Assembly: GCA_002307375.1 (NCBI GenBank)
Contig: NTJI01000005.1
Location: forward strand, 1 to 64,000
DNA from: Lysobacteraceae bacterium NML93-0399
GTDB taxonomy: Bacteria > Pseudomonadota > Gammaproteobacteria > Xanthomonadales > Xanthomonadaceae
Length of the DNA: 64,000 nt
Reading direction: 5' to 3'
The first letter of the stretch is position 1, and every line of letters starts with the position of its first letter. The notes under the pieces were generated by a model, which saw only the letters and a program-made list of their open reading frames with translations, was not told the DNA's origin and ran no database searches. Positions 4,797 through 62,066 of this stretch are shown piece by piece. A program made the position numbers and the translations under genes.

Positions 4797-4917
4797 GTCG
4801 ATGCTCCGCTACGGGGGAGTCACGAGCCTGCGCGCGCGACCGTGAGTACGAAGTCACTCGTGAATGAACACGGGTTGCGGGCGCGGCATCTGCGACCGGC
4901 GGCCGGATAATGGTCGC

Positions 4918-5982
4918 GTGCGCAAGATCCTCCACATCGACATGGATGCCTTCTACGCTTCCGTCGAACAGCGTGACGATCCATCGCTGCGCGGCAAACC
5001 GGTCGTCGTGGCCTGGCGCGGCGCGCGTTCGGTGGTGTGCGCGGCCTCGTACGAGGCGCGGCCCTTCGGCGTGCGTTCGGCGATGCCGGCGGTGACCGCG
5101 GAGCGCCTGTGTCCGGACGCGATCTTCGTGCCGCCGGATTTCGCGCGCTACAAGGCGGTGTCGAGGCAGGTGCGCGAGATCTTCCATGCGCACACCGATC
5201 TGGTGCAGCCGCTGTCGCTGGACGAGGCGTATCTGGATGTCACCGATCCGAAGATTCCCTCGCCGAGCGCGACCGCGACCGCGCAGGCGATCCGCGCGCA
5301 GATCCGCGAAGCCACCCAGCTCACCGCCTCGGCGGGTGTGGCACCGAACAAGTTCATCGCCAAGATCGCCTCCGACTGGAACAAGCCCGACGGCCTGTTC
5401 GTGGTGAAGCCGTCGCAGGTCGATGCCTTCCTGACGCCGCTCAAGGTCGGGCTGATTCCGGGCGTGGGCAAGGTCATGGAAAAGAAGCTCGCCGAGCTCG
5501 GCGTGGCCACGGTCGGCGACCTGCGCGCCTTGCCGCGGGAAGCGCTCGAAGCGCGCTTCGGCAGCTTCGGCGCAAGCCTCTACCGACGTGCGCGCGGCAT
5601 CGACGAGCGCGCGGTGGAGCCGGACCAGCCGGTGCAGTCGATCTCCTCGGAGGACACCTTCGAAAGCGATCTGCCGATCGAAGCGCTGGCCCCGATGATC
5701 GAGCGACTCGCAGAGAAGACCTGGGCGGCGACCCGCAAGACCACGCGGGTCGGGCGTACGGTGGTGCTCAAGCTCAAGACCGCGCAGTTCCGCATCCTCA
5801 CGCGCAGCTTCACACCTGATGCGCCGCCGGCCTCGCAGGCCGAGCTGACCCGCATCGCGCTGGCGCTGCGCGATCGCGTGGAATTGCCGGCCTCGACGCG
5901 GTATCGCCTCGTCGGCGTGGGCATCGGCGGATTCCGCGAACCCGAGGAACTGCCGATGCAGGCGGGATTGTTCGAGGGTTGA
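4918..5982 (+). CDS. dinB: DNA polymerase IV
   Basis: A 354-aa Y-family translesion polymerase. The N-terminus MRKILHIDMDAFYASVEQ carries the first catalytic Asp (D8), and SLDEAYLDVT carries the second acidic pair near residue 103. Palm, fingers, thumb and little-finger domains fill the usual length (E. coli 351 aa). I place the start at the GTG at 4918, which gives the canonical N-terminus; the upstream in-frame extension is not conserved-looking. The extreme C-terminus, L-P-M-Q-A-G-L-F-E-G, has the form of a beta-clamp binding motif (Q-x-x-L-F). The last 80 bp of the gene are repeated three more times downstream. Expected to be stress/SOS-linked, but no LexA box was recognised. Confidence 0.95.
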   Translation: MRKILHIDMDAFYASVEQRDDPSLRGKPVVVAWRGARSVVCAASYEARPFGVRSAMPAVTAERLCPDAIFVPPDFARYKAVSRQVREIFHAHTDLVQPLSLDEAYLDVTDPKIPSPSATATAQAIRAQIREATQLTASAGVAPNKFIAKIASDWNKPDGLFVVKPSQVDAFLTPLKVGLIPGVGKVMEKKLAELGVATVGDLRALPREALEARFGSFGASLYRRARGIDERAVEPDQPVQSISSEDTFESDLPIEALAPMIERLAEKTWAATRKTTRVGRTVVLKLKTAQFRILTRSFTPDAPPASQAELTRIALALRDRVELPASTRYRLVGVGIGGFREPEELPMQAGLFEG

Positions 5983-6037
5983 GTGCTGCGCGGCGGCGTG
6001 CGCGCCTAGCGCTCGTCACCGGCGCCCGCAATGTGTG

Positions 6038-6106
6038 TGTAGGAGCGCGCTTGCGCGCGATGGGGCTCTACCGGGACGGCGCCTCGCGCGCGAGCGCGCT
6101 CCTACA
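6038..6106 (+). repeat. REP pair 1 of the dinB array
   Basis: Left arm GTAGGAGCGCGCTTGCGCGC and inverted right arm GCGCGAGCGCGCTCCTAC can fold into one long hairpin or cruciform. The sequence between the arms also recurs. Confidence 0.9.
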
Positions 6107-6120
6107 CGAAGCAGCCTCGG

Positions 6121-6199
6121 ATCGCTCGTCGAGGCGGGCATCGGCGGATTCCGCGAACCCGACGAGCTGCCGGTGCGGGCGGGATTGTTCGAGGGGTGA
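6121..6199 (+). pseudogene. dinB 3'-tail copy 1
   Basis: Encodes G-I-G-G-F-R-E-P-D-E-L-P-V-R-A-G-L-F-E-G and then stop TGA, with the rest of dinB absent. Compared with dinB it has Q to R in the clamp-motif position and shares E-to-D and M-to-V changes with the other copies. Confidence 0.88.
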
Positions 6200-6254
6200 G
6201 CGCTGCGCGGCGGCGGGTGCGCCTCGCGCGCGTCATCGGCGCCCGCAATGTGTG

Positions 6255-6323
6255 TGTAGGAGCGCGCTTGCGCGCGATGGGGCTCTACCGGGACGGCGCC
6301 TCGCGCGCGAGCGCGCTCCTACA
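6255..6323 (+). repeat. REP pair 2 of the dinB array
   Basis: Same two inverted arms and same inter-arm sequence as the first pair, 217 bp downstream of it. Confidence 0.9.
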
Positions 6324-6337
6324 CGAAGCAGCCTCGG

Positions 6338-6417
6338 ATCGCCTCGTCGGGTTGGGCATCGGCGGATTCCGCGAACCCGACGAGCTGCCGGTGCAGGCGG
6401 AATTGTTCGAGGGTTGA
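6338..6417 (+). pseudogene. dinB 3'-tail copy 2
   Basis: Encodes G-L-G-I-G-G-F-R-E-P-D-E-L-P-V-Q-A-E-L-F-E-G and then TGA. The Q-x-x-L-F motif is kept. This copy lies in frame with an open frame that begins at GTG 6196, overlapping the stop codon of copy 1. Confidence 0.88.
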
Positions 6418-6470
6418 GTGCTGCGCGGCGTCGGGTGCGCCGTGCTCGTCACCGGCACCCGCAATGTGTG

Positions 6471-6539
6471 TGTAGGAGCGCGCTTGCGCGCGATGGTGCT
6501 TCACTTGGAAGGCGCCTCGCGCGCGAGCGCGCTCCTACA
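6471..6539 (+). repeat. REP pair 3 of the dinB array
   Basis: Both REP arms are intact. The sequence between the arms has diverged (ATGGTGCTTCACTTGGAAGG), unlike pairs 1 and 2. Confidence 0.9.
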
Positions 6540-6552
6540 CGAAGCAGTTCAG

Positions 6553-6627
6553 ATCGCCTTGTCGGGGGCATCGTTGGATTCCGAGAACCTGACGAATTGC
6601 CGGTGCAGGCGGGATTGTTCGAGGGAG
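6553..6627 (+). pseudogene. dinB 3'-tail copy 3 (most diverged)
   Basis: Still matches the dinB end (GGATTCCGAGAACCTGACGA, GCGGGATTGTTCGAGGGAG) but has small deletions, a broken frame and no TGA at the expected place. It looks like the oldest or least constrained copy. Confidence 0.85.
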
Positions 6628-6686
6628 AGTGCTGCGCGGCGGCGGCGGGCGCGCGGTGCGCTCGCCACCGGCGCTCGCGATGTGTG

Positions 6687-6756
6687 TGTAGGAGCGCGCT
6701 TGCGCGCGATGGGGCTCTACCGCTAACGCCCTTCGCGCGCGAGCGCGCGCCTACAG
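6687..6756 (+). repeat. REP pair 4 of the dinB array
   Basis: The left arm is identical to the others; the right arm ends GCGCGCGCCTACAG. It ends five bases before the dinG stop codon, so it lies at the 3' ends of two convergent genes. Confidence 0.9.
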
Positions 6757-6760
6757 GGCG

Positions 6761-8923
6761 TCAGCCGATTACGCGCTTGAACGGTGGCAGTGCGTCGATG
6801 ATGCGCTGGCCGTAGCGACGGTTGAGCAGGCGCGAGTCGAGGATCACCACGCGGCCGGTGTCGGTGGACGTGCGGATCAGGCGGCCGGCGAACTGGGTCA
6901 GCGTGCGCAGGGCGTGCGGCACCGCGATGAGGTTGAACGGGTTGAGGCCGCGTGCTTCGAGCCATTCGCCGAGCGTCGCTGTCTGCGGATCGGTCGGTAC
7001 CGCGAACGGCACCTGGGTGATCACGACCGTCGTGCAGGCTTCACCCGGCAGGTCGAGGCCTTCGCCGAACGAGTTCAGGCCGAACAGCACCGAGCCCTTG
7101 CCGGCCGCGACACGCTCGAGATGCGCGGCGACGACCTGTGACTTGTTGCCGCTGCTCTGCACCTGGATCGCACCACGCCGCGAAGCCGGCATGAGTTCGG
7201 CGACCTTCTCCATCTTCCAGCGCGAGGTGAACAGCACCATCGAGCCCTTGGTCCAGTCGAGCTCGCGCGCGAGCCATTCGGCGACGGCCTTCGGGTGACC
7301 TTCGCGATCGTCGGGCGCGACCGGGAAAGGCGGCACGATCAGCTGCGCCTGGTTGGGCAGGTCGAACGGCGACGGCAGCGAGGCCATTTCGGCGTGATCG
7401 GGCAGGCCGGTATCGATGGCGAAGGACTGGAAATCACCGCCGCCGGTCAGCGTCGCCGAGGTCATGACGACCGAATCGATCTCCTTCCACAGCAGCGTGC
7501 GCAGCACGTGCGCGGCCGACACCGGCGAGCAATGCAGGGCGAGATCGCCTTCGCGCGTCGCGGTGATCCAGCGCGCCATCGGTGGTGCGCCTTCGCGGTC
7601 CTCGCGGCGCCAGCCGGTCCACAGGTCGTGCTGCTGCTCGACCATCTCCAGCGCCAGCCCGAGGCTGCGCTGCAGCTTCTCGCGGGCGGGATCCTCCTGC
7701 TTGGCACGCGCTACCGCCTGCTGCGCGGCGTGCACCCAGTTGAGCAGCGCACGCGTGTCCTCGGCGATCGACTCGATCGTCGGCGCCCAGTCGTCGGGCA
7801 GCTTGCCGAGCGGCGCGCGCCACATCGGGTCGCGTTCGCCCGGCTCGGGCTGCCACACGCGGTCGACATCGAGCTGGAAGGCCTTGAGCGCCTTGGAGAC
7901 GCGCGCGGTCAGTTCGATCGCCTCGCTCGGCAGCAGCGTGCCGATCTTCTCCTTGTCGACCAGCCGATAGCTGCCGGCCACCAGGATCTGCATGCGCCCG
8001 GTGCGCTTGGCCATGTCGCTCAGCGGCAGGCGCGCGGCGCCCTGGTCGATGGCGACGTTGGCCACATGATGCCCCTCGTCGAGCACCAGCAGCATCTCGC
8101 CCGGCGGCGCCAGCAGCGGCTGGCCGTTCTCGATGTCGCCCATCGACAGCGAGGACAGCAACAGGGCGTGGTTGGTGACCACGATCTGCGCCTCGCGCAC
8201 GGTGTTGCGCGCCTTGAGCACCGGACACTGCTGGGCGAAGCTGCAGCGCCGCCCGGCGCAGCCGGATGCGGGTGTGGTGATGCGGCCGCGCAGGGCCGGC
8301 GAGATGGGCTCGGGCGCAGCGTCGATGTCGCCGTCCCACTGGCGGTCGGCATGGGCCTCGAGCAGACGGCGCGCGGCGTCGATCTCGTGCGGCGCCAGCG
8401 GACGGTCGTAGAGCTGCCGGTCGAAATCGCCGCCTTCATCCGGGCCCGCATCATCGAGCAGCATCGTGCCCTGGCTGTGTTCGGCATGCAGTTCGGCGGC
8501 ATTGCGCGTGCACAGATAGCGCGTTCGGCCCTTGGCCAGCGCGACGCGGGCTTCCAGACCGGTGGCAGCGAGAAACGCGGGAATGTCGCGCTCGACCAGC
8601 TGCGACTGCAGCGCGACGGTGCCGGTGCTCACGACCAGTTTCTTCTTCGTCGCCAGGGCGATCGGCACGCCGGCAGTCAGATAGGCCAGCGACTTGCCCA
8701 CGCCGGTCGGCGCCTCGGCCACGCCGATACCGCCCGAAGTCGCCAGTGCACGCGACACCAGCCCGATCATCGCGCTCTGCGAACGACGCGTGGTGAAGCC
8801 GGGCGTGTTCGCCTGCAGCTTTGCGTAGGCGGCGCGGATGTCGGCCTTCAGCGCCTCGGTGAGCACGCGCGGCGGCGCGTCGGCAGCCTCGGCGGCCGGC
8901 GAAGTGGAGGTGGTGTCGCCCAT
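6761..8923 (-). CDS. dinG: ATP-dependent DNA helicase DinG
   Basis: A 720-aa XPD/DinG-family superfamily 2 helicase, 5'-3', that unwinds R-loops, D-loops and forked DNA. The Walker A box is EAPTGVGKSLAYL (about residues 70-82) and the Walker B box is LDEGHHVAN (about 281-289). Four cysteines at about 138, 222, 227 and 233 (G-C-A-G-R-R-C-S-F-A-Q-Q-C-P) fit the 4Fe-4S cluster that marks this family. C-terminal helicase motifs include SATLTGG and FGLNSFGEGLDLPG. It is convergent with dinB, with the repeat array filling the space between them. ATG at 8923. Confidence 0.93.
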   Translation of the reverse strand: MGDTTSTSPAAEAADAPPRVLTEALKADIRAAYAKLQANTPGFTTRRSQSAMIGLVSRALATSGGIGVAEAPTGVGKSLAYLTAGVPIALATKKKLVVSTGTVALQSQLVERDIPAFLAATGLEARVALAKGRTRYLCTRNAAELHAEHSQGTMLLDDAGPDEGGDFDRQLYDRPLAPHEIDAARRLLEAHADRQWDGDIDAAPEPISPALRGRITTPASGCAGRRCSFAQQCPVLKARNTVREAQIVVTNHALLLSSLSMGDIENGQPLLAPPGEMLLVLDEGHHVANVAIDQGAARLPLSDMAKRTGRMQILVAGSYRLVDKEKIGTLLPSEAIELTARVSKALKAFQLDVDRVWQPEPGERDPMWRAPLGKLPDDWAPTIESIAEDTRALLNWVHAAQQAVARAKQEDPAREKLQRSLGLALEMVEQQHDLWTGWRREDREGAPPMARWITATREGDLALHCSPVSAAHVLRTLLWKEIDSVVMTSATLTGGGDFQSFAIDTGLPDHAEMASLPSPFDLPNQAQLIVPPFPVAPDDREGHPKAVAEWLARELDWTKGSMVLFTSRWKMEKVAELMPASRRGAIQVQSSGNKSQVVAAHLERVAAGKGSVLFGLNSFGEGLDLPGEACTTVVITQVPFAVPTDPQTATLGEWLEARGLNPFNLIAVPHALRTLTQFAGRLIRTSTDTGRVVILDSRLLNRRYGQRIIDALPPFKRVIG

Positions 8924-32875: not shown

Positions 32876-32946
32876 TGTAGGAGCGCGCTTGCGCGCGATG
32901 GGGCTGTGTCGGGAACGCTTCATCGCGCGCGAGCGCGCTCCTACAG
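32876..32946 (+). repeat. REP pair after the outer-membrane protein gene
   Basis: The two inverted arms match those of the dinB array exactly in the core; the inter-arm sequence is related (GATGGGGCTGTGTCGGGAAC). Present as one copy only. Confidence 0.9.
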
Positions 32947-61599: not shown

Positions 61600-61646
61600 T
61601 CGCGTAGTTGCAGGGCGCTCGCACACGAGGGTTTCAGCGGTAACGC

Positions 61647-62066
61647 CCATCGCGCGCGAGCGCGCTCCTACAGGGAGGGTCTCGGCGTTAGGACGTGCAC
61701 CTGAGGTTGCGCTTCGACGGGGGCACATTTCCCGTCTCGCCCGAGCCAGCGCCAAACGTAGAGACGATCCCCTGTAGGAGCGCGCTTGCGCGCGAGGGCT
61801 CTCCCGATAATGCGTCCCCGGGCGAAGACCTTCCCCGGCAAAGCCCATCGCGCGCGAGCGCGCTCCTACAGGGAGGGTCTCGGCGTTAGGGACGTGTACC
61901 TGAGGTTGCGCTTCGACGGGGGCACATTTCCCGCCTCGCCCGAGCCAACGTCGAACGTAGAGACGATCCCCTGTAGGAGCGCGCTTGCGCGCGAGGGCTT
62001 CCCCGACAATGCATGCCCGGCCGAACACTTCCCCGGCAAAGCCAATCGCGCGCGCGCTCCTACCAG
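61647..62066 (+). repeat. Second tandem REP array, 198-bp unit
   Basis: GGGAGGGTCTCGGCGTTAG recurs at 61673 and 61871, and the 198-bp unit between is repeated with about 90% identity. Each unit ends in two REP arms (61773-61870 and 61972-62066); an extra single arm stands at 61647-61673, and the last right arm is shortened (ATCGCGCGCGCGCTCCTACC). The spacer contains TAGAGACGATCCCC and GGGGGCACATTTCCCG. It fills the gap between two convergent genes. Confidence 0.9.

Follow-up and report, generated by a model that had tools for sequence, protein, structure and literature searches.

A tandem REP-pair array carrying copies of the dinB 3' end between dinB and dinG in Lysobacteraceae bacterium NML93-0399

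Introduction

In Lysobacteraceae bacterium NML93-0399, the end of dinB (DNA polymerase IV) is present four times ahead of the convergent dinG (ATP-dependent helicase), once in the gene itself and three times beyond its stop codon, and each time it is followed by an inverted pair of REPs. The locus raises the question of how a gene end came to be amplified together with REPs and what, if anything, the copies mean for dinB. It lies in the window, the stretch of 64,000 nucleotides that was analysed as a whole and to which all unprefixed coordinates refer.

Tandem REP arrays are known from other bacteria. In Pseudomonas fluorescens SBW25, 16 tandem clusters of REPINs were described that take in flanking sequence as well (Bertels and Rainey, 2011; PMC3116915). 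In Xanthomonas campestris, the REP GTAGGAGCGCGCTCGCGCGCGA is listed together with its RAYT, and the great majority of its copies stand in large regular clusters (Nunvar et al., 2010; PMC2817692); REP dimers of this species are described as tandemly repeated together with adjoining DNA, the length of which varies (Di Nocera et al., 2013; PMC3733652), and most of its REPs are found where the neighbouring genes converge or run in one direction (PMC2817692; PMC3733652). A weak literature search, which covered titles and the starts of abstracts and few subscription journals, recognised no paper on gene ends carried by REP arrays.

Structure of the dinB–dinG array

The dinB reading frame extends from 4918 to 5982 on the forward strand (its start may alternatively lie at 4864) and dinG from 6761 to 8923 on the reverse strand, identified by NCBIfam NF002677 and NF008729, respectively, both above cut-off; with stops at 5982 (+) and 6761 (-), the two genes converge across 778 bp. 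Positions 5903–6755 of the window sequence are made up of four head-to-tail units of 211–218 bp each, for which Tandem Repeats Finder gave a period of 217, 3.9 copies, 88% matches, and a score of 1288. Four such units, each joining a dinB tail to an inverted REP pair, had been proposed in the initial annotation, and Tandem Repeats Finder, a repeat search, and alignment all confirmed them.

Every unit has the same order: the last 76–80 nt of dinB, a spacer of approximately 54 nt, and an inverted GTAG-type REP pair with its feet outward, the REP core being GTAGGAGCGCGCTTGCGCGCGA; a short post-REP flank closes units 1–3 and is missing from unit 4. Unit 1 (5903–6120, +; Tandem Repeats Finder and alignment) begins with the last 80 nt of dinB itself (5903–5982) and has its REP pair, which like the others is assigned no strand, at 6037–6107 (repeat search and fold). 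Unit 2 (6121–6337, +; alignment) is composed of a tail copy at 6121–6199 and a REP pair at 6254–6324 that is identical to the first at 71 of 71 positions (repeat search and alignment), and unit 3 (6338–6552, +; alignment) of a tail copy at 6338–6417 and a REP pair at 6470–6540 (repeat search and fold). Unit 4 (6553–6755, +; Tandem Repeats Finder and alignment) has a tail copy at 6553–6628 and terminates at the foot of its REP pair, placed at 6686–6755 by fold. All REP pairs are thus located between dinB and dinG, and only the first tail lies inside dinB.

The repeat search recovered a 63-nt tail core four times, starting at 5916, 6133, 6351, and 6563, with an identity to dinB of 87–90% in the three copies, and a 117-nt block of spacer and REP pair, also four times, 84–96% alike. 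In the unit alignment, pairwise matches between units ranged from 65/75 to 74/80 for the tails, from 44/54 to 48/54 for the spacers, and from 59/71 to 71/71 for the REP pairs. In units 1 and 2, the arms of the REP pair are 24 nt long, 96% complementary, and separated by 23 nt; in unit 3, they are 33 nt long and 85% complementary. Folding gave a single long hairpin for each of the four REP pairs (-54.6 to -65.3 kcal/mol), for that of unit 4 in the same way as for those of units 1–3, and none of 200 shuffles was as stable for any of them.

With an inverted REP pair as its unit, head-to-tail repetition with flank, an extragenic position, and a high genomic copy number of its REP, the array is a tandem REP-pair (REPIN/BIME) cluster in which flanking DNA was copied too, one more cluster of the published kind. 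The REP sequence and internal motifs of Escherichia coli, whose BIME-2 is also defined by gyrase binding, probably differ from those of the window. The E. coli BIME-2, likened here by description, also has REPs in opposite orientation (PMC2817692). The ordered REPIN clusters of SBW25 are closer in that near-identical REP pairs stand in tandem including flank, with higher-order clusters also beside RAYT genes; unlike here, where 80 nt of dinB are involved and the copies are polarised by outgroups, the available text does not say that the flank is a gene end (PMC3116915). The GTAG REPs and BIMEs of X. campestris resemble the array in being RAYT-linked, in forming regular clusters, and in having tandem dimers with flank, and the window REP is one base from GTAGGAGCGCGCTCGCGCGCGA; they differ in belonging to another genus, and the carrying of gene ends is not described in the parts of those papers available to us (PMC2817692; PMC3733652).

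Two further REP loci occur in the window. A second tandem array at 61638–62064 (period of approximately 198–199, approximately 2.1 copies, 91–92% alike) carries no gene end under strict alignment, and a single REP pair without tandem copies lies at 32876–32945 between convergent predicted genes.

Relative age of the array and fate of the copied tails

The genus sample comprised 52 genomes, with dinB in 51. A search with the DinB protein as query (E <= 0.001) gave extra tail matches only in the genome under study, at its three copies, and none in the 50 other congeners with dinB. Copies of the tail away from dinB were found neither with this query nor in the listed part of the 221 matches of a second search; within this scope the copies stand only beside dinB, and dispersal of the tail to other loci was rejected as an account of the array. 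A plasmid origin was likewise dropped, with no match in the plasmid collection ('near' mode).

The dinB locus was oriented in 25 genomes, our own and 24 relatives, and dinG was within view in five of the relatives; the remaining 19 have no dinG inside the fetched stretch (one of these ends with its contig) and are uninformative about the interval. In the closest relative, G009 (97% DinB identity), dinG is approximately 150 bp away, and the interval contains one REP pair of the GTGG type and no tail copy. The distance is approximately 140–160 bp in G064, G020, and G048 and approximately 930 bp in G043, in each case without such REPs. Identical unit number and sequence in all relatives had been named at the outset as the outcome that would point to an old, fixed structure; the opposite was found, with tail copies in none of the five relatives that have both genes in view. 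In the distant congener G015 (L032:2577–2911, in the orientation of dinB), dinB ends on a TAG that belongs to a REP foot, and it is followed by a tandem REP array that is separate from this REP and has no dinB-tail copies.

To polarise the differences, the tails of the four units and the dinB ends from six congeners (G009, G064, G020, G047, G048, and G043) were aligned. All three copies depart from dinB by plain substitution at 5946 and 5956; because the base of dinB is absent from all six outgroups, the alignment indicates that dinB itself changed at these sites (Asp to Glu and Val to Met, respectively) and that the copies retain the earlier codons. The outgroup base at 5946 is T in four cases and the C of the copies in two, both of which code for Asp. 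At 5916, which lies in a gappy stretch, the change is on the side of the copies, two by substitution and one inside a gap, and the stop-codon region (5979–5982) is too variable to polarise. The initial annotation had offered a choice between amplification from a common copy and a later change in dinB; the latter fits 5946 and 5956, and at 5916 it was the copies that changed.

At 5940 and 5967 of the alignment, the bases common to dinB and its three copies are absent from all six outgroups. The duplications therefore postdate the split from G009, the closest relative in the sample, whose dinB differs from that of the window at 106 of 1062 nt.

The copied tails look like passengers, because they decay while the end of dinB itself is intact. 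In the tail of unit 2, Arg has replaced the Gln of the Q-x-x-L-F motif, presumably the sliding-clamp binding motif, although the motif is intact in two copies; the stop codon is lost in unit 4; indels have entered the heads of the copied tails; and the divergence of the tails from unit to unit is similar to that of the non-coding spacers. Units 1 and 2 form a patchwork in which identical REP pairs accompany tails that match at only 71 of 79 positions, and this combination of identical REP pairs with more diverged tails points to exchange or conversion between units.

Gene ends in other REP arrays

A census of REP arrays was made in 58 stretches of contig C1, these being the C1 regions among 100 listed places of GTAGGAGCGCGC matches, nearly all of which are on the forward strand of C1 and reach up to 1.79 of its 1.82 Mb. 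Tandem repeats holding a REP were counted, and ORFs were called by a codon-bias score that recovers both dinB and dinG; the stricter of two alignment scorings was used, the looser having given more tail overlaps, some of them from REP self-similarity. Tandem REP arrays with periods of approximately 100–260 bp were present in 36 of the 58 regions (37 cases). In at least five of the 37 (L057, L073, L086, L095, and L097), the repeated part is the REP pair alone, which two separate insertions may explain as well.

The 3' end of a flanking ORF lies inside the array over at least 20 nt in 8 of the 37 cases and over at least 60 nt in 4, namely, L061 (105 nt), L105 (80), L083 (68), and L093 (63), followed by L102 (40), L072 (31), L080 (22), and L103 (20); in L080, and probably in L102, part of the overlap belongs to a REP foot from which the stop codon comes. 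All gene overlaps found in the census are 3' ends. The genes beside the eight tail-carrying arrays comprise Lnb_N-domain, MFS, Sir2, RmlD, HAD hydrolase, sigma-70-like, and DUF4156 genes and the ORF of L105. Among the four longest cases, Pfam matches were obtained for the ORFs of L061, L083, and L093, and the short ORF of L105, with no Pfam or NCBIfam match, is the least sure. As other arrays carry the ends of unrelated genes, dinB is no special case of gene-end capture but a long example of a recurrent minority event.

Two suggestions of the initial annotation lose their ground here. REPs were supposed to expand alone, with the carried gene end as an exception; tandem REP pairs with flank are already described in print (PMC3116915; PMC3733652), and gene ends occur in other arrays. 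Polymerase IV and DinG were supposed to act on the hairpins; eight other tail-carrying arrays adjoin unrelated genes, and a functional link to the activity of the two proteins is unsupported.

Arrays with gene ends are also found in another species. In G047, a three-unit array (L197, 1330–1960) contains the ends of both neighbours, 52 nt of soxR on the left (NCBIfam match to residue 150 of 151) and 64 nt of a DUF2207 gene on the right. Among the stretches picked from relatives, tails were carried in one of four tandem cases of G047 and, in the six picked from G015, there was one tail of approximately 23 nt (L210); no tail-carrying array was seen in the single stretch picked from G053 or the two from G009.

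The frequency of tails was compared with shuffled array extents in a set of 41 arrays, consisting of the 37 together with two C2 arrays picked for length and the two arrays of the window, and with REP positions that are approximate. Tails were present on 8 of 74 gene-facing sides vs. 13.4 ± 2.1 in the shuffled extents, and 0.7% of shuffles were as low. The inclusion of tails is therefore rarer than it would be if array extents ignored gene ends and is not simply random extension; duplication that ignores gene ends was rejected on this count. Microhomology was set aside as a junction signature, since little of it was seen at the junctions of five other arrays (one stretch of approximately 6 nt with a mismatch in L093) and no mechanism could be read from it.

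The REP family and its RAYT

The genome under study (G000) contains 406 copies of GTAGGAGCGCGC vs. 6 of the reversed control. It has one RAYT gene, G000:C1:173535–174050 (NF047646, above cut-off), around which GTAGGAGCGCGC occurs at 173470 and then at 174185, 174304, and 174423. Judged by the GTAG foot and by the flanking of the RAYT gene with the same REP, the family is a predicted GTAG REP with its cognate RAYT. At the RAYT locus (L060:4733–5817, corresponding to G000:C1:173532–174616), a tandem REP-pair array with a period of 119 lies at the 5' end of the RAYT gene, and another array is found approximately 3 kb from it.

Counts of the 20-base REP core were 518 in G015, 378 in G000, and 275 in G053, at most 35 in the other 49 genomes, and zero in G009. 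The best-scoring relatives of our RAYT were those of G053 (67% identity) and G015 (56%), and G009 gave no match. A RAYT match was present in 29 of the 52 genomes, most of which have zero or very few REPs of this type and possibly house other REP families. G047 and G056 have 26 and 17 REP 20-mers, respectively, yet no RAYT match with our RAYT as query. In G001, which has 35 REP cores, the RAYT match (G001:C15:169356–169838) contains two in-frame stops, as if transposase and REPs were decaying together. REP number thus appears to follow one RAYT across the genus, if roughly, which on balance supports a lineage-specific REP expansion tied to its own RAYT.

Origin of the array

The array is a tandem REP-pair cluster that very likely arose by local duplication at REP hairpins, followed by exchange between units, with the dinB tail as a passenger. 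This reading takes in the observed structure of the units, the relative age of the array, the decay of its tail copies, the presence of gene ends in arrays beside other genes, and the rough co-occurrence of RAYT and REPs. A RAYT-associated GTAG REP pair would first have come to lie in the interval on which dinB and dinG converge. The dinB tail, spacer, and REP pair would then have been copied together by a local tandem duplication whose ends lay in dinB, approximately 135 bp ahead of the REP foot, and approximately 13 bp past the opposite foot. The likeliest trigger would be a replication fork that slips or switches template at the hairpin, as the GC-rich stem of approximately 25 bp and the purely local spread suggest. 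In enterobacteria, duplications can have their join-points at REPs. Unequal exchange between repeats would have amplified the first duplicate into further units, the REP segments would since have been homogenised, as the identical REP pairs of units 1 and 2 between more diverged tails suggest, and dinB would later have changed two codons whose older forms the copies preserve. Any function would be general to REP pairs between convergent genes, such as 3'-end hairpins in both transcripts with a presumed role in RNA, rather than specific to DinB or DinG.

Copying driven by the RAYT is the rival that survives best, and we give it a low probability. The HUH transposase would nick at the REP foot, and the free 3' end would prime synthesis or be transferred nearby, yielding a REP pair and one-sided flanking DNA in tandem. 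TnpA-REP proteins are reported to cut at C|T beside REPs, and according to the authors REPs might spread by either use of the 3'-OH, as a primer or in strand transfer (PMC8266576). A RAYT nick would also explain why, among 29 high-identity arrays, 20 have one edge 0–5 nt away from a REP foot. These edge distances are approximate, as fuzzy matching put the outermost REP in the wrong place in L061, L102, and L103 (suspected in L110) and, by misplacing a REP, produced negative distances in five further arrays. Conserved REPs beside decaying flanks, however, by themselves pull alignment edges to the REP foot. The rough tracking of REP number with this RAYT agrees with such copying, but tail and REP are nowhere dispersed together in the DinB protein search or among the matches listed, and the tail-carrying array of G047 stands in a genome in which our RAYT query found no RAYT. 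In a stronger form, rated a shade lower still, a one-ended RAYT-dependent reaction from the REP foot would copy REP pairs and one-sided flank side by side and would repeatedly capture gene ends, and the arrays would then be dated fossils of older gene ends.

Retention of the copied tails by selection, for instance as a store for replacing the DinB end or as an extended 3' UTR, is very improbable. The closeness of the tail cores to dinB and the motif kept in two copies could be cited in its favour, and tail carrying does depart from the shuffled extents, though downwards; against this, the broken motif, the lost stop, and the indels led us to set it aside, the tails diverge like non-coding spacers, and other arrays copy the ends of unrelated genes. 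An assembly artefact, which a repeat of approximately 850 bp in a window known from the assembly alone might suggest, is unlikely in the extreme because the units differ from one another at many positions, and the same architecture recurs at many loci and in other genomes.

Significance

For dinB itself, the array is unremarkable, apparently a passenger duplication without sign of function. The present analysis adds the outgroup polarisation of the copies, the age of the array, the capture of gene ends at unrelated genes, the decay of the tails, and the rough tracking of RAYT and REPs. The origin of tandem REP clusters is unsettled, Bertels and Rainey, in the text available, proposing only a second mechanism that they do not name (PMC3116915). 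A genome with dozens of such arrays, several of them holding a recognisable piece of a gene, offers breakpoints and outgroup-dated copies, which allow models of slippage, exchange, and RAYT activity to be compared.
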